IMG/VR virus record: IMGVR_UViG_3300046517_000920
Location: 1 to 25,472 of that record
Origin: a virus
Strand: one strand, 5' to 3'
DNA: 25,472 nucleotides
This document shows positions 2,779 to 22,317 of this stretch, piece after piece (positions within the stretch are counted from its first letter, which is position 1; every line of letters begins with the position of its first letter). The notes beneath the pieces were generated by a model. The model was not told the origin of the DNA. It saw nothing but the letters and a program-made list of their open reading frames with translations, and made no database searches. The translations under genes were made by a program, and so were the position numbers.

Positions 2779-3306
2779 ATGACGATCGGTGACGAGATCG
2801 CGAAGGCGAACCGCCGCGCGCTGGAAACGAGCATGACGCGCGAGGAGGCGATCGCGCAGCCGCACAAGAAGCTGGCGAACACGAACAAGTGGCCCTCGCG
2901 CCGGTTCCGTGTGGAGGGATCGCGCGCCGGCAACAGCTACCTGCTGACCAAGAAGCGCGCGGAGTCGATGCAGCGCCAGATGGGCGGCGTGGTGGTGGAG
3001 CTGATCCACGAGCGCCCGAAGGAGGCGAAGGCGCCGCGCGTCAGCAAGAACGAGGAGCGCGCGATCGGGATGCTGGCGTGCCCGCGCTGCAGCGCCGAGG
3101 CGGACAAGCCGTGTCGGTCCACCGGCGGCAGCGAGGCGCCGCGCACGATCGTCGCGCCGCACAAGGTGCGCGTGGTCGCGCATGAGGCGGTGAAGTCCGA
3201 GCGCAACCGCGCGCTGGCGGAATCGGTCTCGCGCGGACCCGCGCGCGCGAAGGACGAGGAGTCCGATCTCGCGTACTCCATGCGCATGAACGGAGGGATC
3301 GAGTAG
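2779..3306 (+). CDS. Phage zinc-finger protein (175 aa)
   Basis: I choose the ATG at 2779, which follows AGGGAGCGAACGAAG; an upstream in-frame start at 2725 would overlap the nuclease and lacks a clear ribosome site. The N-terminal half is basic. The C-terminal half has CPRCSAEADKPCRST followed by a His and Arg (PHKVRVVAHEA), the pattern of the DNA-binding phage zinc-finger domain (C-x2-C-x6-C-R...H..R) common in high-GC phages. Probably a nucleic-acid-binding accessory protein. It is the last gene before the first independent promoter of the window. Confidence 0.65.
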   Translation: MTIGDEIAKANRRALETSMTREEAIAQPHKKLANTNKWPSRRFRVEGSRAGNSYLLTKKRAESMQRQMGGVVVELIHERPKEAKAPRVSKNEERAIGMLACPRCSAEADKPCRSTGGSEAPRTIVAPHKVRVVAHEAVKSERNRALAESVSRGPARAKDEESDLAYSMRMNGGIE

Positions 3307-3314
3307 CAGACCTG

Positions 3315-3343
3315 TTGACAGTCGTTTGTTCCAGACGTACAAA
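3315..3343 (+). promoter_or_regulatory. Promoter P1 with overlapping palindromic operator
   Basis: TTGACA (3315-3320), a 17-base spacer and TACAAA (3338-3343) form a strong sigma70-type promoter. The palindrome TTGTTCCAGACGTACAA (3326-3342) overlaps spacer and -10, so a protein bound there would block RNA polymerase. Transcription should begin near 3350. An AGGAG (3350-3354) precedes the ATG at 3363. It lies in the 56-base gap in front of the double-HTH gene. Confidence 0.75.
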
Positions 3344-3362
3344 CGTGGCAGGAGCGGTGATC

Positions 3363-4352
3363 ATGAACCATGCAACGGCTGTTGCGATCCGGCGCCCGGC
3401 GTTCCACGAGGCGCTCGAGCGCCTGCGCGTGCGTCGCGGGTGGTCGTTCCGCGAGCTGGCCGAGCGCGTGGGCGTCAGCAAGGCCGAGGTGCACGCGTGG
3501 TGTACCGGCGAAGGCATCCCGATGCCGCCGCAGTTCTCGCGCCTGCGCAACGTGTGCTTTCGCGAGCTGGCGCCGTACCGCGAGCAGCTCGAGGTGCAGT
3601 GGGATCGCGCCGGCGGTGACGACTTCTCAGACGCGTTCACGGCCGGCGAACCGGACGCCGCGCAGATGGAGCGTGCCAAGCGCGAGCTGGACGCCGAGGT
3701 GGCACAGCCGGCGCCGCCGCTGCCCGAGCAGGCGCCGACGTTCGGCGAAGCGCTGCGGCGCGCGCGGGTGATCGAGGGGCTGTCGCAGCTCGAGCTGGGC
3801 GAGATGCTGCTGGTGACCAGCCAGGCGGTGGGGCAGTGGGAGCACGAGAACAACGCGCCGGTGCGCAAGCTGTACGATCAGTTGCTGGACCTGTTCCCGG
3901 TGCTGCGCCGCTGCCCGGCGCCGACCACGCTGGACATCCCGGTGCCTGACGGCGGCCGCGGTGACTCGCGCGCGGACAGCGGCGGCGGCGAGCAGCCGGC
4001 GCTGCATACGCAGGTGCCGCGCCTGGTGGTCGGATCGCGGGTGGATCTGCGGCCGCCGGGTGTGCCGCTGACGTTCAGCAAGCCGGCGTTCCCCGCGATG
4101 GAGCTGAAGAAGGATCCGACGCCGCTGGAATCGGCGGCGAGCGCGCACGCGGCGGCGCTGGTGGAGCTGGCGCGCGCCCGCGCGGCCGCGGCGCCGCTGC
4201 AGGACGCAGTGCAGGCCGCACTGGTGGCGCTCGATCAGGCAAAGGCGCGCGCCGTGGCGGCGTTCGAGGCGATCGCGATCGCCGAGGACAACGCGCACCA
4301 CGCGCTGACCGCGCTGCAGGACGCGGCGGCGAAGGAGGCGAGCAAGCCGTGA
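3363..4352 (+). CDS. Transcription regulator with two XRE/Cro-type HTH domains
   Basis: 329 residues from the ATG at 3363, with AGGAG 8 bases upstream. Two separate helix-turn-helix domains of the XRE (Cro/CI) class are visible. The first is at about 13-65 (FRELAERVGVSKAEVHAW). The second is at about 125-180 (LSQLELGEMLLVTSQAVGQW). A Gly/Pro-rich linker follows, then an Ala-rich helix at 255-329 likely to form a coiled coil and so a dimer. No CI-type autopeptidase is present. It is the only gene with a strong promoter and a leadered mRNA among the early genes, and its promoter carries the palindrome found at three other promoters here. I infer autoregulation and control of the later blocks; which domain reads the palindrome is unknown. 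The stop overlaps the next start (GTGA). Confidence 0.75.
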   Translation: MNHATAVAIRRPAFHEALERLRVRRGWSFRELAERVGVSKAEVHAWCTGEGIPMPPQFSRLRNVCFRELAPYREQLEVQWDRAGGDDFSDAFTAGEPDAAQMERAKRELDAEVAQPAPPLPEQAPTFGEALRRARVIEGLSQLELGEMLLVTSQAVGQWEHENNAPVRKLYDQLLDLFPVLRRCPAPTTLDIPVPDGGRGDSRADSGGGEQPALHTQVPRLVVGSRVDLRPPGVPLTFSKPAFPAMELKKDPTPLESAASAHAAALVELARARAAAAPLQDAVQAALVALDQAKARAVAAFEAIAIAEDNAHHALTALQDAAAKEASKP

Positions 4353-7889: not shown

Positions 7890-7905
7890 CGTTGCACGTG
7901 AAACA
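7890..7905. promoter_or_regulatory. parS-like partition site
   Basis: CGTTGCACGTGAAACA differs from the bacterial parS consensus TGTTNCACGTGAAACA only at the first base. It is the only such site I found in the window. It lies in the 35-base non-coding gap between the HNH gene and the next gene, followed by CAGGAGCGGTGAAC, a ribosome site nearly identical to that of the double-HTH gene. No parA or parB gene is visible here. Binding by a ParB protein, from the host or from elsewhere in the phage, is inference. Confidence 0.4.
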
Positions 7906-9086: not shown

Positions 9087-9130
9087 CGCTTGTGACGTCA
9101 CTCGTCAGAACCTACCAGAGTACAATCGCA
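9066..9130. repeat. Direct repeat GAGTACAATCGCA, 52 bases apart, with palindrome GTGACGTCAC between
   Basis: Two exact 13-base copies occur at 9066-9078 and 9118-9130. The second contains TACAAT, a near-perfect -10 box at 9121-9126, only 3 bases before the ATG at 9130. Between them lies the 10-base palindrome GTGACGTCAC (9092-9101), which occurs once more at 129-138. I see no good -35 box and no Shine-Dalgarno sequence for the downstream gene. Confidence 0.6.
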
Positions 9131-9756
9131 TGACCACTGGCAAGGGCAAGGCAAAACGGACCCGCAAGGGAGGCGGCACCAAGGCGAAACCATGGCGCAA
9201 TCGTGGCCGCCTGGCGCTGCTGGATCTCGAGCCGCAGGTGGAGCTGATGATGCTCGCCGCGACCCCGGACCCGACGATTGTAGCCTGGTGCGTGGCGCGC
9301 GGGGCCAGCGACAACCAAGCGACCGGGCTGATCCGAGGCATCCGCGGGCGGTGGCTCGAGGTGCGCGACGACGCGGTGACCGTCGCCCAGCGCAAGGCCG
9401 AGTTCCGGCGCCGCCTGGACTGGGCGTGGAACCTGGCGACGCACGAGCCGATCCTGGACGCGTTCGGGCAGCTGCGCACCACCGACGACGGCAACATCGC
9501 GGTGCGCGCGAACCTGTCCGCGGTGCCCAAGCTGCTGAAGCTGCAGATGGACCTGGACGGCCTGGCCGCGCCCACCAAGTCGATCAACGTGAACATGAAC
9601 ATGTCCCCGGCGGCGCTGTCCCCGGCCGAGCGGCGGACCGAGATCGATCGCCTGCTCGAGCGGCGTCAGCAGCACCTGCTCGCCGCCGGCAGCGCTCCCG
9701 CGCGCGAGCAACCCGTGCTCGATGTTCCTGCTGTGGTCGCTGCGCTCGCCACTTGA
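9130..9756 (+). CDS. terS: Putative terminase small subunit
   Basis: 208 residues. A basic N-terminal tail (GKGKAKRTRKGGG) is followed by a helix-turn-helix-like segment (PTIVAWCVARGASDNQ), a helical block (AQRKAEFRRRLDWAWNLA) and NLSAVPKLLKLQMDLDGLAAP, which resembles the central helices of small terminases. TerS recognises phage DNA and feeds it to the large subunit. The call rests on general resemblance, and the gene is 5 kb away from terL, which is unusual, so a different DNA-binding role is possible. Codons near 9272-9288 contain a 17-base sequence also found in the replication-initiator gene. No ribosome site precedes the ATG. Confidence 0.45.
   Translation: MTTGKGKAKRTRKGGGTKAKPWRNRGRLALLDLEPQVELMMLAATPDPTIVAWCVARGASDNQATGLIRGIRGRWLEVRDDAVTVAQRKAEFRRRLDWAWNLATHEPILDAFGQLRTTDDGNIAVRANLSAVPKLLKLQMDLDGLAAPTKSINVNMNMSPAALSPAERRTEIDRLLERRQQHLLAAGSAPAREQPVLDVPAVVAALAT
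9272..9288 (+). repeat. 17-base exact copy of a sequence in the initiator gene
   Basis: CGACGATTGTAGCCTGG is identical to 41-57. The two are read in different frames (DDCSL in the initiator, TIVAW here), so protein homology does not explain the match. Confidence 0.6.
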
Positions 9757-9781
9757 CGCGCGATTGTACCAGGCGTACAAC
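9753..9781 (+). promoter_or_regulatory. Promoter P2: stop-embedded -35, operator, leaderless start
   Basis: TTGACG (9753-9758) contains the TGA stop (9754-9756) of the upstream gene. After a 17-base spacer comes TACAAC (9776-9781). The palindrome TTGTACCAGGCGTACAA (9764-9780) overlaps the -10. The ATG at 9789 is 7 bases past the -10, at the expected transcription start, and no Shine-Dalgarno is present, so a leaderless mRNA is predicted. Confidence 0.75.
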
Positions 9782-9788
9782 CATCGTC

Positions 9789-10454
9789 ATGACGACGAAC
9801 GACGACACGAGCCCGAGGGCGAAGGCTGCGCGCGAGCTGCGCGAGGCGTGCGAGAACATGCGGCGCGAGGCATTCGCGATCGAGCGGGTGGCCGAGGCCG
9901 CTCTGAGCCTGATCCCGAACGACGTTCCCGAGACGGCGGTGGAGCTGAAGTTGGCCGAGATCAACCGCCTGGTGCGCTCGATGCAGACCAGCACGTACGT
10001 CAGCGGCGTCTCGATCTTCGATCCGACGCCGGACGTGCTCGAGTGGGCGCGCGCCGGCGGCAAGTGGGCCGCATACTCGGTGGACAGCGAGCGCGGCGTG
10101 CTGCGGTGCTACTTCGACGACACCGAGTTTACGATCCACGGCGTCAACCGCGAGCTGCAGCTCGAGACCGAGGACCAGGCGGTGGCGCGGCGCGCGGCGG
10201 CGACCGCGGCCGCGCAGGAGGCAAGCGCCGCGGACTGCACGTGCGCGCCGGACGGCCACGTGCTGCTGGTGGCGGTGGCCGCGTGCCCGCTGCACGGCGC
10301 GGCCGAGCCTGATCCCGGCGCGGGTGTCACGCTGGCCGATCTCGAGGCGATCGAGTCCGACGGCGTGGGCCAGTTCGAGTCCGCCGCCGAGGCGCCCGAG
10401 CAGGTGGACGTGCCCAGCTCGTTCGCGGCCGAGTTCAAGGGCGAGCTGCTGTGA
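9789..10454 (+). CDS. Hypothetical protein (221 aa) driven by P2
   Basis: I choose the ATG at 9789; the frame is open far upstream but that part overlaps the terS-like gene and the promoter. The N-terminal half is helical and charged. The middle (YVSGVSIFDPTPDVLEWARAG; KWAAYSVDSERGVLRCYF) looks like a small alpha/beta domain. Near the end is CTCAPDGH...CPLH, a possible metal site. The C-terminus is acidic. Not recognised. First gene of a block predicted to be expressed from the P2 promoter; stop overlaps the next GTG. Confidence 0.6.
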   Translation: MTTNDDTSPRAKAARELREACENMRREAFAIERVAEAALSLIPNDVPETAVELKLAEINRLVRSMQTSTYVSGVSIFDPTPDVLEWARAGGKWAAYSVDSERGVLRCYFDDTEFTIHGVNRELQLETEDQAVARRAAATAAAQEASAADCTCAPDGHVLLVAVAACPLHGAAEPDPGAGVTLADLEAIESDGVGQFESAAEAPEQVDVPSSFAAEFKGELL

Positions 10455-10666
10455 CCAGCGACGGCGGCAACTGGGACCCGTGGTGGATCCGCCTGATCGG
10501 CGTGGTCGCGCTGGTGCTGGTGGTGCTGATCGCCGGCATCGCGATCGATCAGCTGGTGCACGGCGACCGCGAGGCGCGCGTGTGCGGCACCGCGGCGCTG
10601 TACTGGGCGCTCGATCGCGCGGCGGTGCTGCTGGGGCGCGGTGGCGTGGTCCGGGGGCGCAGGTGA
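10451..10666 (+). CDS. Small single-span membrane protein (71 aa)
   Basis: GTG start overlapping the previous stop. A clear hydrophobic helix at about 14-35 (IGVVALVLVVLIAGIAI) flanked by Trp/Arg before and His/Asp/Arg after indicates an inner-membrane protein. The C-terminus is short and basic. Such proteins in phages can be holins, superinfection-exclusion or spanin-like factors; position here, away from the endolysin, does not decide. Confidence 0.55.
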   Translation: MTSDGGNWDPWWIRLIGVVALVLVVLIAGIAIDQLVHGDREARVCGTAALYWALDRAAVLLGRGGVVRGRR

Positions 10667-11112
10667 GCTACCTGATCACGATCCCCGATCCGGTTCCCGA
10701 TCGGTTCGGGGTGGGCGCGTTCAAGATCAGCACGCACAGCATCAGGGAATTCTTCTGGACGTACTACGCGGGGCCGATCTCGCACGCCGAGGTGTGCAGG
10801 CTGCACGGCACCACTCCGCTGCACGGGCCGAACAGCGGCGCCGTGTGGGAGCGTGACTGGCGGTGTGACGAACGGATCGCAGCGCTCGGCGGCGGCAACG
10901 AGCAGGAGTTCCGCTGCACCGGGCGCGCTACCACCGAGTCGATGCGGCGGTGGCTGACCGAGAACGCCGGCGCGCTGTACGCCACCATGCACGAGGCGCT
11001 CGAGGCACTGGTTTCGATCGAGCGCATCCGCGTCGCCGGCGCCGCGCACGATCTGGCATCGGCGCGGCAGTGGCTGGTCGAGGCCGAGGCGCTGCTAAAG
11101 GTGACCACGTGA
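10663..11112 (+). CDS. Hypothetical protein (149 aa)
   Basis: GTG start overlapping the membrane-protein stop. Aromatic-rich N-terminal half (SIREFFWTYYAGP; HAEVCRLHG) and a helical C-terminal half with repeated Ala/Leu heptad-like spacing (ALYATMHEALEALVSIERI). Not recognised. Ends in a GTGA overlap with the next gene. Confidence 0.5.
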   Translation: MSYLITIPDPVPDRFGVGAFKISTHSIREFFWTYYAGPISHAEVCRLHGTTPLHGPNSGAVWERDWRCDERIAALGGGNEQEFRCTGRATTESMRRWLTENAGALYATMHEALEALVSIERIRVAGAAHDLASARQWLVEAEALLKVTT

Positions 11113-11324
11113 CGCTGCAGCAGCGCATCAACTCCGCGCTGCGCGAGGCGGCGCTGGACGCGTTCGAGGGCGCGACCGCGAAGGATGGGACCGACGACTG
11201 GCGCAAGAACCGGATCGGCATGGCGCGAGGACTGCGCGACGCGATCAACGTCGTATCGCGCGCGATCAGGGATGACCGCAACGCGCGGCGCTCGAGGCGC
11301 CGCAAGGGGGCGCGCCGTGGCTGA
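11109..11324 (+). CDS. Small basic helical protein (71 aa)
   Basis: GTG start in the overlap. Helical, with a strongly basic C-terminus (RDDRNARRSRRRKGARR) that suggests nucleic-acid contact. Not recognised. Overlaps the next gene by 8 bases. Confidence 0.45.
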   Translation: MTLQQRINSALREAALDAFEGATAKDGTDDWRKNRIGMARGLRDAINVVSRAIRDDRNARRSRRRKGARRG

Positions 11325-11775
11325 CCAGCACCATAGCGGTGGCGGTGACTCGAGCGGCAAGCCGCCGGGGCCGCCGCCTGGCGTGACCCCGCTGCACGCC
11401 CCGGTCAAGATCCCGGTGTACGAGAACCTGGACCAGATGCGCGATCACCTGCGCACGCAGGGGCTGCTGCACCGCCCCGAGGACGTGCTGGTGATCGTCG
11501 CGCCCGACATCGCGGCCGAGCTGTACACGTGGGCGTGGTACGTGGAGCACCCGCGGTGCTGCGCGTGGCCGCCGAGCCGCGCCGTGATCGCCACCGACGG
11601 CACCCGGCTGCCGTTCGAGCTGGTGGACCTGATCGGGAAGATCGACGAGTACCCCGTGATCGTGCGCGGGTACCTGGACCCTGGACACATGGGCATGCTG
11701 CCGTACAGCATGCTGGCCGACAACGATCGCACCATGGACGCGATCGCCGAGGCGAAGGCGAGGAGGCCGAAGTGA
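11317..11775 (+). CDS. Hypothetical protein (152 aa)
   Basis: GTG start at 11317 inside the end of the previous gene. A Gly/Pro-rich N-terminal tail is followed by an alpha/beta domain with hydrophobic strands (DVLVIVAPDIAAEL; EYPVIVRGYL) and a DGTRLPFELVDLIG segment. The spacing of strands and helices would suit a small Rossmann-like fold but no catalytic motif is seen. Function unknown; coupled to the next gene by GTGA. Confidence 0.5.
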   Translation: MADQHHSGGGDSSGKPPGPPPGVTPLHAPVKIPVYENLDQMRDHLRTQGLLHRPEDVLVIVAPDIAAELYTWAWYVEHPRCCAWPPSRAVIATDGTRLPFELVDLIGKIDEYPVIVRGYLDPGHMGMLPYSMLADNDRTMDAIAEAKARRPK

Positions 11776-12629
11776 ACGAGCAGGAGCGATGTGATCGGTG
11801 CGGCGCGCCGCACACGGGCGAGTGCAGCAACCCGATGGCCGACGAGGATCGCGCCCCGGTGGCGCCGAGCGCGTTCGATCCGATCGAGGCACCGGCGGCG
11901 GCGCTCGGTCCGTATCAGGCCGCCTACCTGGACGCCAGCGCGCTGACCGCCGCCGAGGTGTCGCTCGAGCCCGGCGTGGACGCGGCGGCGGCGCTGTCCG
12001 ATGGCTGGGCGAAGGTGACCGAGGCGGCGCTGGACGAGGCCGAGGCGATCGGCGCGTCACCGCTGAAGCTGGGCGATCGCCCGGCGGACGAGGTGGCGGT
12101 GGACGCCCCCGGCGTGGTCGCGAAGCCGGCGCCAACGAAAGCCGACATCCACGAGATGCTGCGGCGCGCCGCCGATCCGCTGTCCAAGACGGCCGAGCAG
12201 ATCGCGCGGCCGCGCCTGGACCTGTTCCCGCTGGCGAGCTGGAACGTGCGCATCTGGCTGAAGCCGCATCGCACCGGCACGTACCTGCTGATCCATGCCC
12301 GCCTGCAGGCGCTGCTGCCCGCCAAGGCCGGCGAGGACCCGGACGGCGTGACCGAGGAGGCGCACGCGCGCATGGCCTGGGAGACGCTCGCGAGCGAGCG
12401 CGGCGGCGAGCTGCTCGCGGCGGCGGCGCTCGAGCTGGCCGGCGCGGTGATCGGCCGGACGGTGACCCGCCTGATCGATGGGGGCGTCAAGCCGCGCGAA
12501 TTCCCGTCCGGCGGCGACGGCAAGACGTGCACCAAGTGCGGCGCCGTCAACCCCATGCCGATGGCGATCCGGTGGAACTGCGCGCTGTGCGGCGAGGTGA
12601 ACCTGGGACCGATCGGGGCGGCGCGGTGA
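11772..12629 (+). CDS. Hypothetical protein with N- and C-terminal Cys clusters (285 aa)
   Basis: GTG start overlapping the previous stop. The N-terminus has CDRCGAPHTGEC (C-x2-C-x3-H-x3-C, one possible zinc site). A long Ala/Asp/Glu-rich region follows, then helices with LKPHRTGTYLLIHARL, and finally CTKCGAVNP...CALCGEV, a standard four-cysteine zinc ribbon. Two metal sites at opposite ends of one phage protein is uncommon and could let it bridge nucleic acid or subunits. No family recognised. Confidence 0.55.
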   Translation: MNEQERCDRCGAPHTGECSNPMADEDRAPVAPSAFDPIEAPAAALGPYQAAYLDASALTAAEVSLEPGVDAAAALSDGWAKVTEAALDEAEAIGASPLKLGDRPADEVAVDAPGVVAKPAPTKADIHEMLRRAADPLSKTAEQIARPRLDLFPLASWNVRIWLKPHRTGTYLLIHARLQALLPAKAGEDPDGVTEEAHARMAWETLASERGGELLAAAALELAGAVIGRTVTRLIDGGVKPREFPSGGDGKTCTKCGAVNPMPMAIRWNCALCGEVNLGPIGAAR

Positions 12630-12874
12630 TCAAGCCGTGGGCGTGGACGCTGTCCCGAACCGGCACGTGGGAGTTGAAGAACGGGCAGGGCGACACCCGC
12701 GCCAGCATCTGGCTGACCGGGTCCGGCGAGTACACGTGGCACACATGGAACGAGAACGGCACCGGCGGCGAGAACGACGGCGCGCTGACGCTGAACCAGG
12801 CCAAGGACGAGTGCGTGGCCGCGATCGTGCGCCAGGGCTGGGCACCCGGCGGGTGGACGGTGTCATGGGGCTAG
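12626..12874 (+). CDS. Hypothetical protein (82 aa), Trp/Gly-rich
   Basis: GTG start overlapping the previous stop. Probable small beta sheet (WAWTLSRTGTWELKNG; YTWHTWNENG) followed by a helix and a WTVSWG ending. Such short Trp-rich proteins are frequent in phage early regions. Function unknown. Overlaps the next gene by 10 bases. Confidence 0.5.
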   Translation: MIKPWAWTLSRTGTWELKNGQGDTRASIWLTGSGEYTWHTWNENGTGGENDGALTLNQAKDECVAAIVRQGWAPGGWTVSWG

Positions 12875-13041
12875 GCGTGTGCATGCTGCTGGGCATGGCG
12901 ATCGTGCTGCCGTTCACCCCGGCGGTGCTGGACGGCGCGTACCGCATCGAGCTAGCGGTGGGGCACTGGCTGGGACGCCGGCGCCGGCGCCGAGCGCTCG
13001 CTCGAGCGATGCCGCGCGCCACCGTCGTACAGCGCCGCTAG
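12865..13041 (+). CDS. Tiny membrane protein with Arg-rich tail (58 aa)
   Basis: I choose the ATG at 12865 within the end of the previous gene. Hydrophobic residues 3-22 (LGVCMLLGMAIVLPFTPAVL) form one membrane helix. A second, weaker helix (AYRIELAVGHWLG) is followed by a run of six Arg. A membrane helix plus a cationic tail is the general layout of many small holins, but this is only a possibility. Confidence 0.45.
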   Translation: MGLGVCMLLGMAIVLPFTPAVLDGAYRIELAVGHWLGRRRRRRALARAMPRATVVQRR

Positions 13042-13047
13042 CATCGG

Positions 13048-13284
13048 GTGGTGAGCAAGAGCAAGGCGCGCGACCGCCGCAAGCGTCGCACCGATCGCCA
13101 GGTGCTCGCGCACGGCCATGACGCAAAGCGCTCGCATCGGCGCGTGGCCGGGCGGACCGGCGCGATCCGCTCCAAGCAGGAGCCCAGCAAGAAGCCGGGC
13201 GGCCGCGTCACCACCGAGCGCGAGCGGACAGCGCCGAGCGCGCGGGCGTTCGCTGACCCGAGCCTGGGGCGCCGCCCGTGGTGA
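13048..13284 (+). CDS. Very basic small protein (77-78 aa)
   Basis: Two adjacent GTG codons (13048, 13051) could start it. TAGCAT, a -10-like box at 13039-13044, lies 6 bases before the second GTG, and no Shine-Dalgarno is seen, so this could be another leaderless start. The protein is full of Lys, Arg and His (SKSKARDRRKRRTDRQVL) with Ser and Pro and is probably disordered and nucleic-acid-binding. Stop overlaps the next start. Confidence 0.45.
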   Translation: MVSKSKARDRRKRRTDRQVLAHGHDAKRSHRRVAGRTGAIRSKQEPSKKPGGRVTTERERTAPSARAFADPSLGRRPW

Positions 13285-13370
13285 AGCGCGCGCTGCAGCT
13301 CGCCGGCGCCGCGGCGATCGCGGTGTTCCTGATCCGCTGGATGTTCTCGGATCCCTGGCACCGGCGTTGA
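13281..13370 (+). CDS. Microprotein with one membrane helix (29 aa)
   Basis: GTG at 13281 overlaps the preceding stop (GTGA), the same coupling used across this genome. The product is a basic start (VKRALQ), a hydrophobic run at about residues 7-22 (LAGAAAIAVFLIRWMF) and a short charged end. Coupled start, membrane-protein composition and a stop that forms part of the P3 -35 box support a real gene. Role unknown. Confidence 0.4.
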   Translation: MKRALQLAGAAAIAVFLIRWMFSDPWHRR

Positions 13371-13395
13371 CGCTCGATTGTACTTCACGTACAAC
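13367..13395 (+). promoter_or_regulatory. Promoter P3: stop-embedded -35, operator, leaderless start
   Basis: TTGACG (13367-13372) contains the TGA stop of the microprotein (13368-13370). A 17-base spacer leads to TACAAC (13390-13395). The palindrome TTGTACTTCACGTACAA (13378-13394) overlaps the -10. The ATG at 13402 is 6 bases beyond, without a Shine-Dalgarno, which predicts a leaderless mRNA. Confidence 0.75.
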
Positions 13396-13401
13396 CGTGG
13401 C

Positions 13402-13653
13402 ATGACGGGCGACGGGCGACGGTTCTACCTGTTCATCGAGGACGGCGATCATCACATCCACGTGGTGGCGCGCAACATGGGCCGAGCGTGCGAGCTGGTG
13501 GGCGCGCTGGACCTGGGAGACAGCATCCATCTGGTGGCGCGCGAGCTGGAGGACGACGAGGCGCGCGCGATCCCGGTCAAGGCGGACGACACCTGCCCGG
13601 CCGCGTGCTTGTTCGAGGCGCCGCTGGACAGCATCTACAGCGTGGAGGTGTAG
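13402..13653 (+). CDS. Hypothetical protein (83 aa) driven by P3
   Basis: I take the ATG at 13402; an upstream TTG at 13378 would lie inside the operator. The protein (FYLFIEDGDHHIHVVARNMG; LGDSIHLVARELEDDEA) looks like a small beta-rich domain with an acidic surface and no known motif. First gene of the P3 block. Confidence 0.55.
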   Translation: MTGDGRRFYLFIEDGDHHIHVVARNMGRACELVGALDLGDSIHLVARELEDDEARAIPVKADDTCPAACLFEAPLDSIYSVEV

Positions 13654-13654
13654 C

Positions 13655-13915
13655 GTGCGCGTTCGCGAGTTGCGCGCCGCGCTGGTGGGCGTGGACGACG
13701 ATATGGAGGTGATCCTGCGGACCGCCGACGAGCCCGATTGCGGCGAGTGGTCCCTGATCGTGTGCGGCGTGGAGCACGCGGGGCCGGACGCCGGCTGCAC
13801 CGAGCGCGAGGCGTTCGTGCTCGATGGCAACACCGGCGTGGTGCAGGAGTACCCGAACGACGAGGAGGACGAGGCCCCGGCGCCGGCGGTAATCGTCGGA
13901 ACGGTGGAGGTGTAG
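13655..13915 (+). CDS. Conserved small phage/plasmid-type protein (86 aa)
   Basis: GTG start one base after the previous stop, with GGAGGTG upstream as ribosome site. The opening RVRELRAALVGVDDDMEVIL matches a recurring small protein pattern (x-ELxxxLxxxDDDxEVxI) of phages and plasmids, with a beta strand pair and an acidic tail. The central CGVEHAGPDAGC contains two Cys. No function is known for such proteins. Confidence 0.55.
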   Translation: MRVRELRAALVGVDDDMEVILRTADEPDCGEWSLIVCGVEHAGPDAGCTEREAFVLDGNTGVVQEYPNDEEDEAPAPAVIVGTVEV

Positions 13916-13917
13916 CC

Positions 13918-14775
13918 GTGGCCGATGCCATCGATGACGAGCTGATCGCGAGGGCGCGCGAGATCATCGCGGCGGCGAGCCCGGCGCCGTACCACCTGGG
14001 CACGTTCGGGCGCGGCCAGGAGGCGCGCGACAAGATCGCAGCCTTCCACGTCAAGGCCGAGGTGACGGCGGACGGCGCCGAGCGCGATACGCTGTTCGTG
14101 TGGGTGGAGGATCCCGAACCGCCGCCGGACGAAGATCCGAGCGAGCCCAGCTCGCTGGTGGTCGCGCTGACCGGGAACGGACCGCGCAGCGAGGCGAACG
14201 CGCGGTACATCCTGCACAGCCACGATCCGATCGGTGGCTGGGGCGCGTGCCTGAACGAGATCGAGCGGCTGCGCAACACGATCGGCGCCCGCGCGCTGCT
14301 GGGGGTGACGCAGGAGCGCGATGCGCAGATCGCCGCGAAGGATGCCGGGCTGGCACACCGAGATCGCGAGTTCGCTCGTCTGGCCTCGGTGATGAACAGG
14401 CCGACAACGGACGCCGCCAGCACCCTGGTGGACCTGGCGATCGCGCTGCGCGACGAGCGCGATCGCCTGCTCGCCGCGCTGACCCGCATCGACTCCATGA
14501 CGAGGCACCGCAGCTACAGTCCAAACGGTGTGATGTCCGCGGGCTGGCACGAGCACCCCGCGCAGATCGCCGCCGAGGCGATCGGCCAGCCGCGCGCTGT
14601 CCCGACGGCCGAGCGCGTGATCATGCAGTTGCAGCAGCAGATCCGCGACCTGCAGGACGAGCCCGATCAGGGCGAGCTGCTGACCAGGCTCGAGGCGCTG
14701 GCGCTGAAGTGCGGACGGCTCGAGGGCGAGCTGGAGATGCTGAAGCGAACCCACAGCGACAGCGCCACCGAGTAA
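13918..14775 (+). CDS. Ea22/Ead-like phage protein
   Basis: GTG at 13918 follows GGAGGTGTAGCC. 285 residues. The segment LTGNGPRSEANARYILHS followed by an E-I-E-R-L-R helix is the hallmark (GNGP..EANA.YI) I associate with Ead/Ea22-like proteins of tailed phages. The N-terminus is a small alpha/beta unit. Residues 165-285 are long charged helices (coiled coil) with an insert. Ea22 proteins are early, non-essential genes; in lambda they are linked to lysogeny choice, with no enzymatic activity known. Its TAA stop forms part of a TAAGAT -10-like box 9 bases before the large terminase ATG. Confidence 0.6.
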   Translation: MADAIDDELIARAREIIAAASPAPYHLGTFGRGQEARDKIAAFHVKAEVTADGAERDTLFVWVEDPEPPPDEDPSEPSSLVVALTGNGPRSEANARYILHSHDPIGGWGACLNEIERLRNTIGARALLGVTQERDAQIAAKDAGLAHRDREFARLASVMNRPTTDAASTLVDLAIALRDERDRLLAALTRIDSMTRHRSYSPNGVMSAGWHEHPAQIAAEAIGQPRAVPTAERVIMQLQQQIRDLQDEPDQGELLTRLEALALKCGRLEGELEMLKRTHSDSATE

Positions 14776-14787
14776 GATCGCCGGCGC

Positions 14788-16272
14788 ATGGAGCAAGCGG
14801 CGCCTGTCACCTGGACGGCCGATGACGAGTCACGCCTGGCCGAGTTGCTCGCGGCCGAATTCGACGGCGAGGGACTGGCCGACTACATCCGCCGCGTGAA
14901 CCCGCGGATGCCGCCGCCGCCGCACGTGCTGCCGGTGATCGAGGCGCTCGAGGAGGCGCGCGAGGGCAGCGCGGACCCGCACGGACCGCTGCGGATCATC
15001 GTGGTGGAGATGCCGCCGCGGCACGCCAAGACCACCACCGTGCTGCACGCGCTGGCCTGGCGGATCTTCCGAGATCCGGCCGTCACGAACGCGTACATCA
15101 CGTACGGCGACGATCTGAGCGCCAGCAAGAGCCGCATGGTGCGCAACCTGGCGATCGCCAGCGGCGTGCAGCTCGCCGCCGACATGGCGAACCTGTCCGA
15201 GTGGCGGACGGTGCACGGCGGTGGCCTGCTCGCCGGCGGGATCATGGGCCCCCTGACCGGCAAGGGGATCGACGGCGTGCTCGTGGTGGACGATCCGATC
15301 AAGAACCGCGAGGAGGCGGAATCGCAGACGTACCGCGACAAGGTGTGGGACCAGTTCACGGACGTGGTGTTCACCCGCCTTGAGGGCGCGGCGTGCGTGG
15401 TCGTGATGATGACCCGCTGGCACCCGGACGACCTGATCGGGCGCATCCTGGACAAGCAGGCCGAGCTGACCGAGGAGCTGGGCCGGAACGTGATCATCCG
15501 CCGCATCCAGCTGCAGGCGATCGCCGAGGCGGACGATCCGCTGGGCCGCCCGATCGGCACCGCGCTGTGGGCTGTCCGGTTCAACGAGGCGCGCCTGAAC
15601 CTGATCCGCAAGGTGGTGGGCGAATACACGTGGGCAAGCATGTTCCAGCAGGAACCGCGCGCCCGCGGTGCGGTGCTGTTCGCATCGGACAACGGGCTGC
15701 CGTCGCGGTTCGCTGTCGGCACGTGGGTGCCGAACGGCCACCGGATGCTGATCGCGTGCGACCCCGCGGCAACGGCCAAGACGAAAAGCAACTACAGCGC
15801 CGCGTATGTGCTCGCCGCGACCGGGTGGGGCGCGACGATGGAAATGTGGGTGGTGGACGGGTTCCGCCGGCAGATCACGATCCCCGAGCTGGTGCGCAAC
15901 CTCCAGGCGCTGCGCGAACGGTGGTACGGGATCGCGATCGCTGTCGAGGCGGTGGCGGCGTTCAAGAGCGTGCCCGACATGCTGCGCGAGGTGGACCCGA
16001 CGCTGCCGATCATCGAGGTGACGCCGCGCGGGGACAAGTACGTGCGCGCGCAGCCGGTGGCCGCCGCGTGGAACCAGGGCCGCGTGTGGGTGCCGGCGGA
16101 TGCCGACTGGGCGGCGAAGATGATCCACGTCTGCAGCGTGTTCACGGGCCGCGACGATCCCGAGGACGACGACGTGGACGCGCTCGCGCACGGCTGGAAC
16201 GAGCTGTTTGATGCGATCGCGAACGAGCCCGAGCGCGGACCGACGCCGGCGCCGTTCCTGCCGTTCGGTTGA
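14788..16272 (+). CDS. terL: Terminase large subunit
   Basis: 494 residues, an ATPase plus nuclease that packages DNA into the prohead through the portal. ATPase: PPRHAKTTT at 76-84 (a non-canonical Walker A lacking the first Gly), VLVVDDP at 164-170 (Walker B, Asp168/Asp169), and MMTRWHPDDLIGR at 207-219, a conserved block of this terminase class. Nuclease: Asp325 in IACDPAA, Glu387 in IAVEAV, and the acidic cluster at 460-464. Length is usual for the family. The 5-kb distance to the candidate small subunit is odd. No Shine-Dalgarno; TAAGAT at 14773-14778 could be a -10 box. Confidence 0.9.
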   Translation: MEQAAPVTWTADDESRLAELLAAEFDGEGLADYIRRVNPRMPPPPHVLPVIEALEEAREGSADPHGPLRIIVVEMPPRHAKTTTVLHALAWRIFRDPAVTNAYITYGDDLSASKSRMVRNLAIASGVQLAADMANLSEWRTVHGGGLLAGGIMGPLTGKGIDGVLVVDDPIKNREEAESQTYRDKVWDQFTDVVFTRLEGAACVVVMMTRWHPDDLIGRILDKQAELTEELGRNVIIRRIQLQAIAEADDPLGRPIGTALWAVRFNEARLNLIRKVVGEYTWASMFQQEPRARGAVLFASDNGLPSRFAVGTWVPNGHRMLIACDPAATAKTKSNYSAAYVLAATGWGATMEMWVVDGFRRQITIPELVRNLQALRERWYGIAIAVEAVAAFKSVPDMLREVDPTLPIIEVTPRGDKYVRAQPVAAAWNQGRVWVPADADWAAKMIHVCSVFTGRDDPEDDDVDALAHGWNELFDAIANEPERGPTPAPFLPFG

Positions 16273-16297
16273 CCGTGCGGTGTATCCGCGATACAAA
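16269..16297 (+). promoter_or_regulatory. Promoter P4: stop-embedded -35, operator, leaderless start
   Basis: TTGACC (16269-16274) contains the terL TGA stop (16270-16272). A 17-base spacer leads to TACAAA (16292-16297). The perfect inverted repeat TGTATC-CGC-GATACA (16281-16295) overlaps the -10 in the same register as the other three operators. The ATG at 16304 lies 6 bases beyond, with no Shine-Dalgarno. Confidence 0.7.
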
Positions 16298-16303
16298 CAG
16301 CGG

Positions 16304-16615
16304 ATGACGATTCAAGAGAAACAGATCCTGTATCACCAGCTCTGCCACGCGGTGCAGACCGGCGTGGCGATGATGCTCGAGCGCCGTCCGAACGGCGACA
16401 CGACGCCGAAGCATCTGCGCGTGGGCGTCAACATCGCGATGTGCGAGGCCGCCGGGATGTCACGCCTGCTCGTGCGCAAGGGCGTGATCACGGAGGACGA
16501 GTACTGGGACGCGATGATCGAGGTGATGCGCGAGGAGGTGGCGCGCTACAAGGCCGAGGTGAACGAGGCGGTGGGTGCTCGGCCGGGCCTCGAGATCAAG
16601 CTGGACGGGTTCTGA
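16304..16615 (+). CDS. Conserved phage protein (103 aa) driven by P4
   Basis: ATG at 16304. The pattern HLRVGVNIAMCEAAGMSRLLVRKGVITEDEYWDAMIEVMREEVARY is one I recognise from small phage proteins near terminase genes (L..GIN.A......L..LL..KGVIT.EEY..A...GM..EV..Y). All-helical. Function unknown; position suggests a role in packaging or early head assembly, but this is inference. Confidence 0.6.
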   Translation: MTIQEKQILYHQLCHAVQTGVAMMLERRPNGDTTPKHLRVGVNIAMCEAAGMSRLLVRKGVITEDEYWDAMIEVMREEVARYKAEVNEAVGARPGLEIKLDGF

Positions 16616-16630
16616 TGGTACGGTCCGCGG

Positions 16631-17197
16631 ATGTGGATCCTTCCCCTGCTCGCGTACCTGCAGCTGCTTTCGCACCGCCCCGAGTACCTGGCCGCCGCGA
16701 TCGCCGCCGAGCAGCCGATGCATGCCGGGCCGGCGGTGGAGAACGCCGAGGCCGCGATCGCCGCCGAGCGCGCGCCGGTGTCCGCCGAGCTGCTGCTGGC
16801 GATCGCCTGGCGTGAATCGCGGTACCAGGAGGCGGCGGGGCCGATGTGCGGCGTGCTGCAGGCGGACGCGCAGGACCGGCGCGACTGGTACGGGCGGCCG
16901 GCGCGGTGCGCCGAGCTGCTCGCGGACGGCCTGGACGCGCAGTACGGCGCCGGCGAGCGCGCGCTCGAGCGCTGGCTGCGTGCCTGCGGCCGGATGCGGC
17001 GCGCGCGGGGCGTGACGCTGCTGCGCTGCGCGCTGAACGGGTACGCCGAGGGCACGGCGGCCGCGCGGCGCGGCTGGGGCGTGCGCGGATGCCGTGGAAC
17101 CTCGAGGTGTGACCGGGCGGCCGGGCCGCTGGCGCGCGCAGCACGGATCGGCGCCACTTGGCGCGCGCGGTGGCGGATGCAGATCCCCGCGTCCTGA
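16631..17197 (+). CDS. Lytic-transglycosylase-type endolysin (SLT-like lysozyme)
   Basis: 188 residues. A hydrophobic N-terminus (WILPLLAYLQLLS) could be a signal-arrest segment. The core ELLLAIAWRESRYQEAAGPMCGVLQ carries the catalytic Glu62 (ES motif) of goose-type/SLT lytic transglycosylases, followed by the GVLQ motif (residues 74-77, normally G-LMQ/GLLQ) and later ALNGYAEGTAAA (the usual YN.G region). It would cut peptidoglycan at the end of infection. Last 40 residues are basic. TACGGT lies 6 bases before the ATG, and no ribosome site is visible. Family call good. Confidence 0.7.
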   Translation: MWILPLLAYLQLLSHRPEYLAAAIAAEQPMHAGPAVENAEAAIAAERAPVSAELLLAIAWRESRYQEAAGPMCGVLQADAQDRRDWYGRPARCAELLADGLDAQYGAGERALERWLRACGRMRRARGVTLLRCALNGYAEGTAAARRGWGVRGCRGTSRCDRAAGPLARAARIGATWRARWRMQIPAS

Positions 17198-17225
17198 TGT
17201 CACAGGTGGTTTGTAGTGTAGCTAT

Positions 17226-17582
17226 GTGGTCGATCTCGAGCAGCTGATGCACGGGCTGGATCTGCTTGGGGTATCCCGAGCGGACATCGAGCGCGTTCGC
17301 GGCGCCGCCCGGGTCAGCGAGGCGATCGACGCTCTGCGCGAACTGCAGGAGCGCGTGCGCGCAGGCTCGCGCAGGCTCGCGCGCGACCTGCACCCCGATC
17401 TGCACGGCGCCGGCAACGAGGCCGACCTGCGCGCGGTGCTGCTCGCCGCCGACTGGGTGCGCGCGCTCGAGGTGCCGCGCTACCTGCAGGCGCGCGACGG
17501 CGTGCGCGTGCGCAGCACCGGCATGGGCGTGCGCGTGGAGATGAGCTACGCGGCGCGCGCGGCGGCGGGATCTGACAGCTGA
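17226..17582 (+). CDS. J-domain-like protein
   Basis: GTG at 17226; a -10-like TAGTGT is 6 bases upstream. Residues 30-80 resemble a J domain: a basic helix II (ELQERVRAGSRRLARDL), the HPD motif at 56-58, and a helix III (EADLRAVLLAADWVRALEV). J proteins stimulate host Hsp70 (DnaK) through HPD. Phages sometimes use such proteins to recruit DnaK for replication or head assembly. The N-terminal helix I is less clear, so it may be a degenerate domain. A 10-base tandem repeat (GCAGGCTCGC twice, 17361-17380) lies in helix II. Confidence 0.5.
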   Translation: MVDLEQLMHGLDLLGVSRADIERVRGAARVSEAIDALRELQERVRAGSRRLARDLHPDLHGAGNEADLRAVLLAADWVRALEVPRYLQARDGVRVRSTGMGVRVEMSYAARAAAGSDS

Positions 17583-17600
17583 CCGTGATACTGGGAACGC

Positions 17601-17903
17601 ATGGACACCACCGACAAGCCCGAGGTGAAGATCGAGCAGCCGTCGCGCGGCGTGCGGTTCCATTGCAGCAAGTGCCGGCACGAACAGCGGCTGTACACGC
17701 CGGGGCACAGCGGCCGCGAGGCCGAGCTGCTGCGTCTGCTGATGACCGGATCGCCGCTCGTGTACCCGCACGCGCCCGGCGCTGACTCCCCGATCGGCAA
17801 GTCCGAGTGCTGCCGCGCGCAGCTCGAGGGCGAGCTGTTCGGGTACGGCCTGATCGTGATCGACAGCGAGCGCGGGATCGTGGAGATCGAGGCCGCGCCG
17901 TGA
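17601..17903 (+). CDS. Small zinc-binding-like protein (100 aa)
   Basis: ATG at 17601, 18 bases after the previous stop. GVRFHCSKCRHEQRLYTPG plus a later SECCRAQLEGELFGYG gives a C-x2-C...C-C metal-site pattern, with a beta-rich end (LIVIDSERGIVEIE). No family named. The stop overlaps the next GTG. Confidence 0.55.
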   Translation: MDTTDKPEVKIEQPSRGVRFHCSKCRHEQRLYTPGHSGREAELLRLLMTGSPLVYPHAPGADSPIGKSECCRAQLEGELFGYGLIVIDSERGIVEIEAAP

Positions 17904-18411: not shown

Positions 18412-20289
18412 ATGCCCGGCTACACGCCCCCCACGGGACCCCTGCAGACGCTGATCGACACCGAGCTGTCCAACACGCGCGGGGACCTGGTGGCATCGTA
18501 CGCCGCGCGCCAGGTGGCCGCCGGCGCCGAGGTGCCCCCGGGCACGCTCGAGCCGACGAGCGCTGACGACGCCGGCGCCCGCAGCATGATGCTGCGCGAC
18601 CTGTGCGAGCGGCACCCCGAGTACATGGGCGACTACTGGGAGCGGTGCGAGGCGCTGTACAAGGGCGGCCCGTGGCTGCTCGAGAACGCCGCTCTGATGC
18701 AGCGCGTGTTTCCCAAGCACAACGCCGAGCTGCCCCAGGTGTACGCGGACCGCCTGGCGCGCGCGTTTTACATCAACTACGCCGGCACGATCGTGGACGG
18801 CCTGGTGGCTGGCCTCGAGTCCGATCCGCTGCGCCTGGCCGTCGCCGGCAGCACCACCGACGATCCCAAGCCGCTGCCGGATTGGTGGTCGGAGTGGGGC
18901 GACTGCGTGACCGCGCCGGGCGCCGATCTCGAGCACACCTACAGCCTGCACGGCATCGTGTGCGAGGCGCTGCGCCGGATGCTCGTCAAGCAGAGCGTGT
19001 GGATCCTGGCCGACCTGCCCCGCGTGGACGACAACCCGGCGAGCCCGGTGCCCATCCCCACCACGCTGGCCGAGCAGGAGGCCGCCAAGCTGCGCGATCC
19101 GTACCTGTGCGTCTGCGATGCGGACAGCGTGATCGACTGGGACACGGACGATGACGGCACGCTCCTGTGGGCAATGATGTGGGAAACCGAGCGGCGCCGC
19201 ACCGATCCCACCAAGGGTCGCGGGCTGATCCGCCACACCTGGACCCTGTGGACAGCTGAAGGCTGGGAGCGGTGGCAACTCGATGTGGACCCGGCGCGCC
19301 CGCCGCGCCCGGACAGCTACGTGCAGCAGGTGGACAAGGGGCCGCACCCGTTCGGCTGCGTGCCGCTGGTGCGCGCCAAGCTGCCCGACGGCCTGTGGGC
19401 GATGGGCAAGCTCGAGTCCCTGGCGCGCGAGCACCTGAACAAGCGCGCGGCGGTGAGCTGGGCCGAGTACAAGAGCCTGTTTCCGATCCTGTACGAGTTC
19501 ATGGGCGCCGAGAACCCGGCCGCGAAGGTGATCGCAGTCGCCCAGAAGGACCCCGGGCGCGCGACGAACCAGACGCGCGGCCAGGGCTGGACGCAGCGGC
19601 GCGGCGCCGACGATCGCGCCGAGTTCGTGGGGCCGCCCACGGCGCCGTTCACCGAGGCGCGCGCGAGCTGTTCCGAGCTGATGCAGGAAATGCATCGCGT
19701 CACCAAGACGATGGCGGCGAGCGCCAACATGGACAGCAAGGCGCTGCAGCGCTCTGGCGACAGCAAGGAGGCCGACAACCACGACACGATGGTCGTGCTC
19801 GAGGCGCTCGGCATGCGCGGCCGCGCGATCGCGAAGGCGCTGCAGCAGCTCGTGGCCGCCGGGCGCTCGGACAAGGCGGACCTGACGCCGCAGGGGATGC
19901 AGTCGTTCGACCTGCAGAGCGTGACCGACAAGATCAACGAGGCGGTGCAGCTGTTCGCCGGCGTGCCGATCCTGTCCCCCACGTTCAAGCGCCTGTACCT
20001 GCAGATCCTCTATCAGCTCGTGCTGTCCGACCACGCGGACCAGGACGTGATCGAGGAAATCCGCGAGGAGCTGCAGACCGCGATCGAGGCCGAGGGGATG
20101 ATGCTCGGCATGGGACCGGGCGGCGCACCGCTGCCCCCGGGTGTCGAGCCGGACGGCGACGAGGATCCGAACGCGGATCCCGAGGCCGCCGACGATGACG
20201 GCGACGAGCCCGCGGCCAAGCCGGTGAAGCGCGCCGCCGGCGGTGGCGGTGGTCGGATGTTTGGTACTGGCCCGTTCGCCAAGAAGTAG
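18412..20289 (+). CDS. Portal protein
   Basis: 625 residues at the start of the head module. The ATG follows GAGGAGTAATCC. The region RAFYINYAGTIVDGLVAGL and the later PFGCVPLVRAKLPDGL, LESLAREHLNKRAAVSWAEYKSLFPILYEF, and KADNHDTMVVLEALGMRGRAIAKALQQL-like stretch (read in order as KEADNHDTMV, then ALGMRGRAIAKAL) have the order and the N-terminal YINYAGTIVD-type signature I associate with DUF4055/SPP1-like portals. The C-terminus is acidic and then basic. Portals form a 12-subunit ring at one vertex for DNA packaging. Position between terL and the MuF gene confirms the role. Confidence 0.8.
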   Translation: MPGYTPPTGPLQTLIDTELSNTRGDLVASYAARQVAAGAEVPPGTLEPTSADDAGARSMMLRDLCERHPEYMGDYWERCEALYKGGPWLLENAALMQRVFPKHNAELPQVYADRLARAFYINYAGTIVDGLVAGLESDPLRLAVAGSTTDDPKPLPDWWSEWGDCVTAPGADLEHTYSLHGIVCEALRRMLVKQSVWILADLPRVDDNPASPVPIPTTLAEQEAAKLRDPYLCVCDADSVIDWDTDDDGTLLWAMMWETERRRTDPTKGRGLIRHTWTLWTAEGWERWQLDVDPARPPRPDSYVQQVDKGPHPFGCVPLVRAKLPDGLWAMGKLESLAREHLNKRAAVSWAEYKSLFPILYEFMGAENPAAKVIAVAQKDPGRATNQTRGQGWTQRRGADDRAEFVGPPTAPFTEARASCSELMQEMHRVTKTMAASANMDSKALQRSGDSKEADNHDTMVVLEALGMRGRAIAKALQQLVAAGRSDKADLTPQGMQSFDLQSVTDKINEAVQLFAGVPILSPTFKRLYLQILYQLVLSDHADQDVIEEIREELQTAIEAEGMMLGMGPGGAPLPPGVEPDGDEDPNADPEAADDDGDEPAAKPVKRAAGGGGGRMFGTGPFAKK

Positions 20290-20298
20290 CACCTGATC

Positions 20299-22317
20299 AT
20301 GGTCGCGCCGATCGCACCACGTCCGCCCGGCGCGCTGGCGCCGCGCCGCCCGCGCAAGCAGGCGATGGCCGAGGTGCAGATCGTCATCGAGCAGCAGGCG
20401 CAGCTGATCGACGCGCTCGATCGCGACGCGATGCGCGCGCTGGTGCCGGTGCTGGTGCAGGCGCGCGACGAGCTGCGCAAGGGGCTGCAGGAGTGGCTCG
20501 ACGCGAACCAGGACAACGGCCTGCGGTTCACGGCGCAGGCGTACCGCAAGGCGATGCTGAATCTCGAGATCGCGCTGGACCGCGTGGCGCAGCTCGATGC
20601 GGACGTGAAGGCGATCCTCGATCAGGGGCGCCACGCCGCCGGCGAGCTGTCCGCCACGAACCTGGCCGAGCAGGTGGCGCGGTTCGGCGAGATTTTCGGC
20701 GAGTCGATCACGCCGACATCGATCGACACCGCGGCGGTGATCGCGAAGGGCGACCGGCTGCTGATCAAGCAGCACCGCACGAGCGCCGCGCGATACGCCG
20801 GCGCGGTGGGCAACGACATCCGCCACCAGCTCGCGGTGGGCGTGGCGATGAACGAAACGTTCGGCCAGCTGAAGGCGCGCCTGGTGAAGCTCGGTGGACC
20901 GACCGGCATGGTTGCGCTGCGCGGCGTGCTTGGTGAGCCTGGCGCGCTCGCCGAGCACATCAGCGAGGGATTGTTCCGTCGATACAGGTACTGGGCCGAG
21001 CGCGTTGTGCGCACGGAGATGATCCAGGCGTACAACATCCAGCACCAGGAGGGGATCAAGCTCCTGAACGACACCCGCCCCGATGGTGTGGAGGCGTACG
21101 TGCAGCGGTGGGACTCCACGCTGGACGGTCGCGCCTGCCCGGTGTGCCGCGGGCTGGACACCAAGACGGCGCCGATCGGCGGCACGTTCCCGGGCGGCTA
21201 CGACGCGCCGCCGGCGCACCCGAATTGCAGGTGCTGCGTGGTCGCGTGGCATCGCGAGTGGGGCGACATGGCCGGCGAGGTGCAGGCCGCGAACGAGAAC
21301 GCCGCGCCCGCGGCGCCGCCGACCCCAGCGCCCGAAGGACTGCCCCCGGCCGCGGCGCCGCCGCGCCGCGAACCCGAGGAACCGCCGCCCGCACCCGCAC
21401 CGCCGCCGGCGCCACCCGCGCCGATCGCCGCCGCCCCGCCGGCGTTCACCCCGTCCGTGGGCGACCCCGAGCCGGCGCTCGAGCGCATGGCCGCCGGGAA
21501 GTGGAAGGCCGCGCGCGCTGCGCTGGAGTCCGACATCGAGGCCACCGAGGGGTACGGCAAGGCGCAGCGCCTGCGCGCGATGACGCCCAGCCAGAACGTG
21601 CGGGTGCGCAAGCTGCGGTCGGGCGTGCTCGGGCTGTACGACGGGCGCGACGGCGAGATCTCGATCACCCGGCGCGAGGCTGGGCTGGCGCAGGAGTTCG
21701 GCGAGCGCGCGCGCCACGCCGCCGCCGACCTGCGCGCGAACCTTGAGATCGCGAACGAGCTGGCGCGCGAGCGTGACGCCGGCAAGCGCGCGGCGCGGAT
21801 GGCCGAGCTGGGTAGCGCGCGCGTCAGTGAGGTGCGCGAGGATGTGCGCCGCATGAAAGGCGCCCACACGCTGGTGCACGAGGTGATGCACGGCTACGGG
21901 CCGATCGCGGCGCTGGGCACCGCCTACGGCGGCGCGGCTGCGGTGGTCGAGGAGGTGACGAACGAGGTAGCCGCGCGCCGATGGATGCGGCTGCGCGTGG
22001 GCGTTGCGCGCGACGTGTACGAGGGGACGCTGTCCGCCGACGGGTTCCGCACCGGCGCGTACAATGGCTGGATCGACGGCGCCCGCGGCGCGATCCAGTT
22101 GATCTACGGCGTGGACGAGGAGCGCGCGGCGGCGATGCTCGAGGCCGCGTCCGATCGCTACAAGCTGCGGCGCATCGGATCGATCACGGACGCGAACGAC
22201 GCGATCAAAGCGCTCGCCGAGGACATCAGCAAGCAGGCGCGCAAGGCCAGCAAGGACGTGGGCAAGCGCGCCGCTCTCGAGCAGGAGCTGCGCGCCGCAG
22301 CAAGGGCAAGGCCATGA
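20299..22317 (+). CDS. MuF-like head protein fused to a putative HExxH metallopeptidase domain
   Basis: 672 residues, much longer than a plain MuF/SPP1 gp7 protein (about 300). Residues 1-320 are the head domain: the RYWAERVVRTEMIQAYN helix, and a Cys/His site with CPVCRG (Cys280, Cys283) and HPNCRCC (His307, Cys310-Cys313). Residues about 335-395 are a Pro/Ala-rich linker. Residues 395-672 carry LVHEVMHG with His527-Glu528-x2-His531 and, 20-25 residues on, an EEV..NE segment (Glu551, Glu552, Glu556) that could supply the third zinc ligand, as in gluzincins. MuF proteins with variable C-terminal effector domains are known in phages. Whether this domain is a maturation protease or an injected effector is open. 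Confidence 0.75.
   Translation: MVAPIAPRPPGALAPRRPRKQAMAEVQIVIEQQAQLIDALDRDAMRALVPVLVQARDELRKGLQEWLDANQDNGLRFTAQAYRKAMLNLEIALDRVAQLDADVKAILDQGRHAAGELSATNLAEQVARFGEIFGESITPTSIDTAAVIAKGDRLLIKQHRTSAARYAGAVGNDIRHQLAVGVAMNETFGQLKARLVKLGGPTGMVALRGVLGEPGALAEHISEGLFRRYRYWAERVVRTEMIQAYNIQHQEGIKLLNDTRPDGVEAYVQRWDSTLDGRACPVCRGLDTKTAPIGGTFPGGYDAPPAHPNCRCCVVAWHREWGDMAGEVQAANENAAPAAPPTPAPEGLPPAAAPPRREPEEPPPAPAPPPAPPAPIAAAPPAFTPSVGDPEPALERMAAGKWKAARAALESDIEATEGYGKAQRLRAMTPSQNVRVRKLRSGVLGLYDGRDGEISITRREAGLAQEFGERARHAAADLRANLEIANELARERDAGKRAARMAELGSARVSEVREDVRRMKGAHTLVHEVMHGYGPIAALGTAYGGAAAVVEEVTNEVAARRWMRLRVGVARDVYEGTLSADGFRTGAYNGWIDGARGAIQLIYGVDEERAAAMLEAASDRYKLRRIGSITDANDAIKALAEDISKQARKASKDVGKRAALEQELRAAARARP

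Follow-up and report, generated by a model that had tools for sequence, protein, structure and literature searches.

In phage lambda, the promoter PRM makes a leaderless cI mRNA. Regulators of the XRE family are typically autoregulatory dimers that act on palindromes (PMC12565409), and in high-GC bacteria leaderless genes are marked, according to published work, by a TANNNT motif about 12 bp upstream of the start codon (PMC3160421, PMC12340547). In Deinococcus deserti, Deide_18350 is a leaderless target of DdrO, with a radiation/desiccation response motif (RDRM) that runs from -35 and a transcription start site at +1 (PMC5552922). The Deinococcus DdrO/RDRM system (RDR regulon) is the closest precedent for the locus described here, a set of four promoter copies (P1 to P4) in viral DNA of 25,472 nucleotides, positions 1 to 25,472 of IMG/VR record IMGVR_UViG_3300046517_000920 (the window). 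We consider it likely that these are host sigma70-type promoters with a built-in operator, three of them leaderless, and that an XRE-type protein of the phage controls them and regulates itself.

The promoter copies and their palindrome

The four copies all lie on the same strand.

3315..3342, + strand: promoter P1, TTGACA / 17 bp / TACAAA, then a leader with a Shine-Dalgarno sequence
9753..9791, + strand: promoter P2, TTGACG / 17 bp / TACAAC, 7 nucleotides (nt), ATG; the TGA of its -35 box (9754-9756) ends gene 9130-9756
13367..13404, + strand: promoter P3, TTGACG / 17 bp / TACAAC, 6 nt, ATG; the TGA of its -35 box (13368-13370) is the stop of 13278-13370
16269..16306, + strand: promoter P4, TTGACC / 17 bp / TACAAA, 6 nt, ATG; the TGA of its -35 box (16270-16272) is the terL stop

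TTGAC-N18-TACAA occurs at four sites on the + strand of the window, and in 2000 first-order Markov sequences it had a mean of 0.0005 per strand and a maximum of 1. Four of the six TTGAC words on the + strand fall in the P1 to P4 set. This set is real and non-random, far from chance. Each member has the build of a sigma70-type promoter, with TTGAC(G/C/A) and TACAA(C/A) set 17 bp apart. They escaped a strict consensus scan because position 6 of the -10 box is not T.

At one fixed register, every copy also carries a 17-bp dyad, TTGTAC-N5-GTACAA, which takes up the spacer and extends into the -10 box.

3326..3342, + strand: operator-like dyad TTGTTCcagacGTACAA in P1, 5/6 arm pairs
9764..9780, + strand: operator-like dyad TTGTACcaggcGTACAA in P2, overlapping its -10 box, 6/6 arm pairs
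13378..13394, + strand: operator-like dyad TTGTACttcacGTACAA in P3, 6/6 arm pairs
16280..16296, + strand: operator-like dyad GTGTATccgcgATACAA in P4, 5/6 arm pairs

A scan of dyad centres left a single one standing out, with 22/24 arm pairs; the runner-up had 11. The dyad's left arm is no promoter element. In P4 the dyad reads GTGTAT-N5-ATACAA; its inner C-G pair has become T-A through matching changes in both arms (C-to-T and G-to-A) that preserve the symmetry, which would fit a site read by a symmetric protein. A palindrome laid over the promoter, which is the arrangement of an XRE-regulated operator-promoter, is found in all four copies. The word GATTGTAGCCTGG, which resembles the left arm, lies in coding sequence at 45, 71 and 9276, probably by chance. 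When viral contigs were scanned for the exact operator-promoter, 2 matches had an ATG at leaderless distance and 14 were found without that requirement; we judged these numbers not far above chance, and some of the contexts recur among related contigs.

Two readings of the palindrome do not involve an operator. It could mark a bidirectional promoter, with a -10 box on both strands. Such promoters are reported to be common in prokaryotes (PMC12825309, PMC10268837), and the minus strand of P2 offers ATGACG-16-TACAAT. Only P2 passed the minus-strand scan, however; the minus-strand -10 box is lost at P4, no -35 box is conserved at P3 or P4, the symmetry spans both 6-bp arms, and all examined genes read rightwards, so that we regard this reading as very unlikely. 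Alternatively, the palindrome could act in RNA as a hairpin, either a processing site or a weak terminator, at the ends of the upstream transcripts. A 6-bp stem over the dyad is possible in P2 and P3, but shuffled sequences fold as well or only slightly less well (z 0 to -1.4), another fold is better than the dyad hairpin at P4, and a U run is absent. This makes a hairpin the least probable of the readings considered here, and the RNA hairpin and Rfam readings of the dyad were rejected.

Predicted leaderless starts and stop codons in the -35 box

The sequence-only reading of this DNA had described P2, P3 and P4, without P1, as a compact cassette in which the stop of the upstream gene is fused to the -35 box and the downstream gene starts leaderless. 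Its observations at the three junctions hold. The TGA of TTGAC is the upstream stop in each case, the stop-to-start gaps are nearly equal (32, 31 and 31 nt at P2, P3 and P4), and the ATG follows the -10 box after 7, 6 and 6 nt. It had also remarked that the last sense codon of the upstream gene ends in T; this is true and no separate fact, since TTGAC forces a T before the TGA. The genes that end and start at these junctions are listed below.

9130..9756, + strand: gene whose stop lies in the P2 -35 box; likened to a small terminase solely for its position, with no family match
9789..10454, + strand: gene of 221 amino acids (aa), of unknown function, predicted leaderless, P2-driven
13278..13370, + strand: 30-aa open reading frame (ORF) with a hydrophobic stretch, ending in the P3 -35 box
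13402..13653, + strand: 83-aa gene of unknown function, predicted leaderless, P3-driven
14788..16272, + strand: terL, terminase large subunit (PHROG 38, E 6.9e-79)
16304..16615, + strand: 103-aa gene of unknown function, predicted leaderless, P4-driven

The 30-aa ORF has codon-position GC of 0.68/0.52/0.90, like the neighbouring genes. The upstream genes had been called terS-like, microprotein and terL; terL has the PHROG match, and the terS-like label goes by position.

The predicted leaderless starts at P2 to P4 are well supported by the sequence, because the distance from -10 box to ATG is exact, no Shine-Dalgarno sequence is found at the starts 9789, 13402 and 16304, and TA recurs at -12 elsewhere in the region. 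At the three junctions themselves TA stands at -12 or -13 and the sixth base of the -10 box is C or A rather than T, which gives a TANNNT-like pattern. Of the 16 starts whose gap measures 9 nt or more, 7 have TA exactly at -12 (background 0.84% per position, P ~3e-11 for the -12 position alone); these starts were picked by hand because antisense ORFs are longer in the window and defeat automated ORF calling, and 6 remain without the ambiguous 13051, which could be 13048. Six genes with a Shine-Dalgarno sequence (AGGAG or GGAG; 2779, 3363, 7924, 22521, 23498 and 24650) have no TA at -12. Leaderless starts seem to be widespread in this region of the genome, where the following further examples lie.

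13039..13053, + strand: -10-like TAGCAT followed by GTG (13048 or 13051); its TAG ends the upstream gene
16619..16633, + strand: leaderless-type start, TACGGT, 6 nt, ATG (16631), no dyad
17214..17228, + strand: leaderless-type start, TAGTGT, 6 nt, GTG (17226), no dyad
17589..17603, + strand: leaderless-type start, TACTGG, 6 nt, ATG (17601)
20287..20301, + strand: leaderless-type start, TAGCAC, 6 nt, ATG (20299); the TAG is the stop of the portal gene

At three places the stop codon lies in a -10-like box instead of a -35 box: TAGCAT at 13039, TAGCAC at 20287, and TAAGAT at 14773, which precedes terL and whose TAA ends gene 13918-14775. These TAA and TAG stops, which open TANNNN boxes, are the -10 counterpart of the fused -35 box. 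In the contig with the closest TerL relative (L003), TANNNT stands at -12 in 4 ORFs and at -11 or -13 in none.

It had been proposed that the fused stop, the -35 box and the leaderless start form one reusable module, that is, a mobile cassette selected as a unit. Its three junctions are alike, with unrelated upstream genes and similar gaps, and P2 and P3 are identical at 25/30 bases from -35 to -10. Even at P1 the TGA of the -35 box (3316) is in frame with the upstream gene, four codons beyond its TAG stop (3304-3306). Nevertheless, P1 is the same promoter with the same dyad, a separate stop and a Shine-Dalgarno leader, and is thus neither fused nor leaderless. Since P1 keeps promoter and dyad without either feature, both are separable, and what is conserved is the promoter with its operator. 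The module survives in this reduced form, as a repeated promoter unit. L003 also speaks against a cassette: the gap behind its terL is similar, at 29 nt, but the promoter there is another one and no stop is fused to it.

The base rate of fusion bears on the same question. For comparison we used 80 viral loci among the matches listed, chosen for TTGACA-N17-TATAAT-N6-ATG. Of the listed matches, at least 55 start a reading frame long enough to be of use; in 47 cases an ORF of that strand lies upstream, and in 6 of these 47 it ends exactly in the TGA of the -35 box. The six fused leaderless-type contigs have no DNA similarity to each other. Among unique TTGACA-N16-18-TATAAT sites in the listed loci, 23/160 (14%) are fused, with at most 7 at any other offset, and leaderless geometry is not favoured (11/96, versus 12/67 for leadered sites). 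Fusion is what compact genomes should give because a TGA is always present at that place; as TTGAC contains TGA, an upstream frame in the right phase ends at the promoter. With three of the four copies in the window fused and a per-site chance of 0.14 to 1/3, the probability is ~0.01 to 0.11, so the fused stops are a mild excess at most. We found no description of the fusion as a design in the literature; the fusion itself is frequent. A selected cassette is therefore improbable, and the fusion would be a by-product of tight packing. The overlap is common among phage promoters, the circuit is tidy but fairly ordinary, and, at a base rate of ~14% of consensus phage promoters with a stop in the -35 box, such fusions need no special explanation. 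It is highly doubtful that the overlap acts as a switch, in which ribosomes ending or polymerase passing at the -35 boxes of P2 to P4 alter the access of polymerase or the XRE protein; if it did, expression of the upstream gene, terL included, would tune the leaderless gene downstream.

The regulator gene downstream of P1

One of the four dyad sites lies before the gene of an XRE/HTH_3 protein.

3350..3365, + strand: AGGAG Shine-Dalgarno sequence and ATG of the regulator gene, downstream of P1
3363..4352, + strand: XRE-type regulator, 329 aa, candidate dyad binder

The protein matches the helix-turn-helix (HTH) families HTH_31 (2.6e-11) and HTH_3 (3.3e-11) above cut-off at residues 18-65, and has a second HTH-like match near residues 120-166. 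The C-terminal S24 peptidase domain that marks a CI/LexA-like repressor gave no match in 3363-4352. Its structure model has a low mean predicted local distance difference test score (pLDDT 52), with a long C-terminal helix predicted whose end is better. We infer that this protein binds the dyads of P1 to P4. By binding there it would shut off its own promoter P1 and would hold RNA polymerase off P2 to P4, thereby controlling 9789, 13402 and 16304. In favour of this, the contig L019, from an unrelated phage, has two tandem copies of TTGTAC-N5-GTACAA beside a gene with HTH_3 and Peptidase_S24 domains, a CI/LexA-like repressor. The P1 transcript would carry a short Shine-Dalgarno leader, while the transcripts from P2 to P4 would begin at or next to the A of ATG and give leaderless mRNAs.

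The dyad could instead be bound by a host regulator, for example of the LexA type, which would tie the phage to host physiology rather than to a switch of its own. The operator is of a generic type, and the same dyad is found in unrelated phages. One copy in the window, however, sits in the promoter of the phage's own HTH regulator, the usual sign of autoregulation, and we hold a host regulator to be unlikely, if less so than the other alternatives.

Several points weigh against control by the phage protein as set out above. Apart from the possible host regulator, binding to the dyad could activate as well as repress. The structure model of the candidate regulator is poor. No homologue of it was found in viral contigs, and its binding to the dyad therefore has no cross-check from relatives. 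The hand-picked starts can inflate the count of TA at -12, and the 5' ends of the P2 to P4 RNAs are predictions from spacing. If the proposed control is correct, a phage of a high-GC host gains a candidate regulon of four sites with one candidate regulator, and the locus would illustrate cleanly how an operator can control leaderless genes of a phage.

Surroundings, relatives and described systems

Outside the four promoters, GAGTACAATCGCA occurs twice, at 9067 and 9119, 52 bp apart, and only 3 nt separate the TACAAT of the second copy from the ATG of 9130. The capsid gene (23498) has a long leader with a Shine-Dalgarno sequence; before it, at 23349-23377, lies TTGACA-N17-CAGTGT with a different palindrome, CACTG-GCG-CAGTG, similarly placed. 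At 7890-7905, between genes that end at 7888 and start at 7924, CGTTGCACGTGAAACA differs at one position from TGTTNCACGTGAAACA, the consensus of chromosomal parS sites in bacteria; a host-type ParB site on a phage would merit attention.

One near-identical contig (L002) repeats P4. Beyond it, only remote TerL relatives were found, and those use other promoter sequences without the motif. In viral contigs the P2-driven gene has no relatives and the portal has one in L002 only. TerL relatives in GTDB genomes came to 51 loci, the best at 43% (a Phenylobacterium metagenome-assembled genome), with no common neighbouring genes and no clear host. L003, with 43% TerL identity, has a repeated promoter-like motif of its own, GGCGCCTAAT, before gene starts and also after terL (sites at 2471, 4353, 8915 and 11615). 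Among other contigs, a phage of 100,840 bases and 46% GC (L018) is rich in leaderless-type promoters of consensus sequence: five TTGAC-N17-TATAAT/TACAAT-N6-ATG starts lie within ~10 kb. The contigs L025, L027, L029 and L031 share sites of the TTGACA-N5-TTGTACGTAGTGTACAATCAC type, an operator-like promoter family that recurs among them and has no relation to the window.

The tandem sites of L019 have the same dyad, one copy in the same register to a TTGAC box. L019 is, however, an unrelated phage (GC 39%) with an S24-type repressor, and the ATG after the copy in the TTGAC register opens an ORF of 21 codons only. The lambdoid CI/Cro circuits likewise combine an HTH protein, repeated palindromic operators over promoters and leaderless phage mRNA (predicted here), while the operators here are single, spread across 13 kb and include genes of the terminase region, and none of the leaderless genes encodes the regulator. 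With the TA-led leaderless genes of high-GC bacteria, the locus shares TA at -12, the lack of a Shine-Dalgarno sequence and a GC content of ~71% (PMC3160421, PMC12340547). P2 to P4 add a good -35 box and an operator, whereas most Deinococcus genes with the -10 motif have no -35 box. The Deinococcus DdrO/RDRM system differs in its operator sequence, and the window has a protein with two HTH regions, belongs to a phage and shows neither an IrrE protease nor a radiation link. The two systems have in common an XRE-family protein, a 17-bp palindrome over the promoter, autoregulation (inferred for the phage) and at least one leaderless target.

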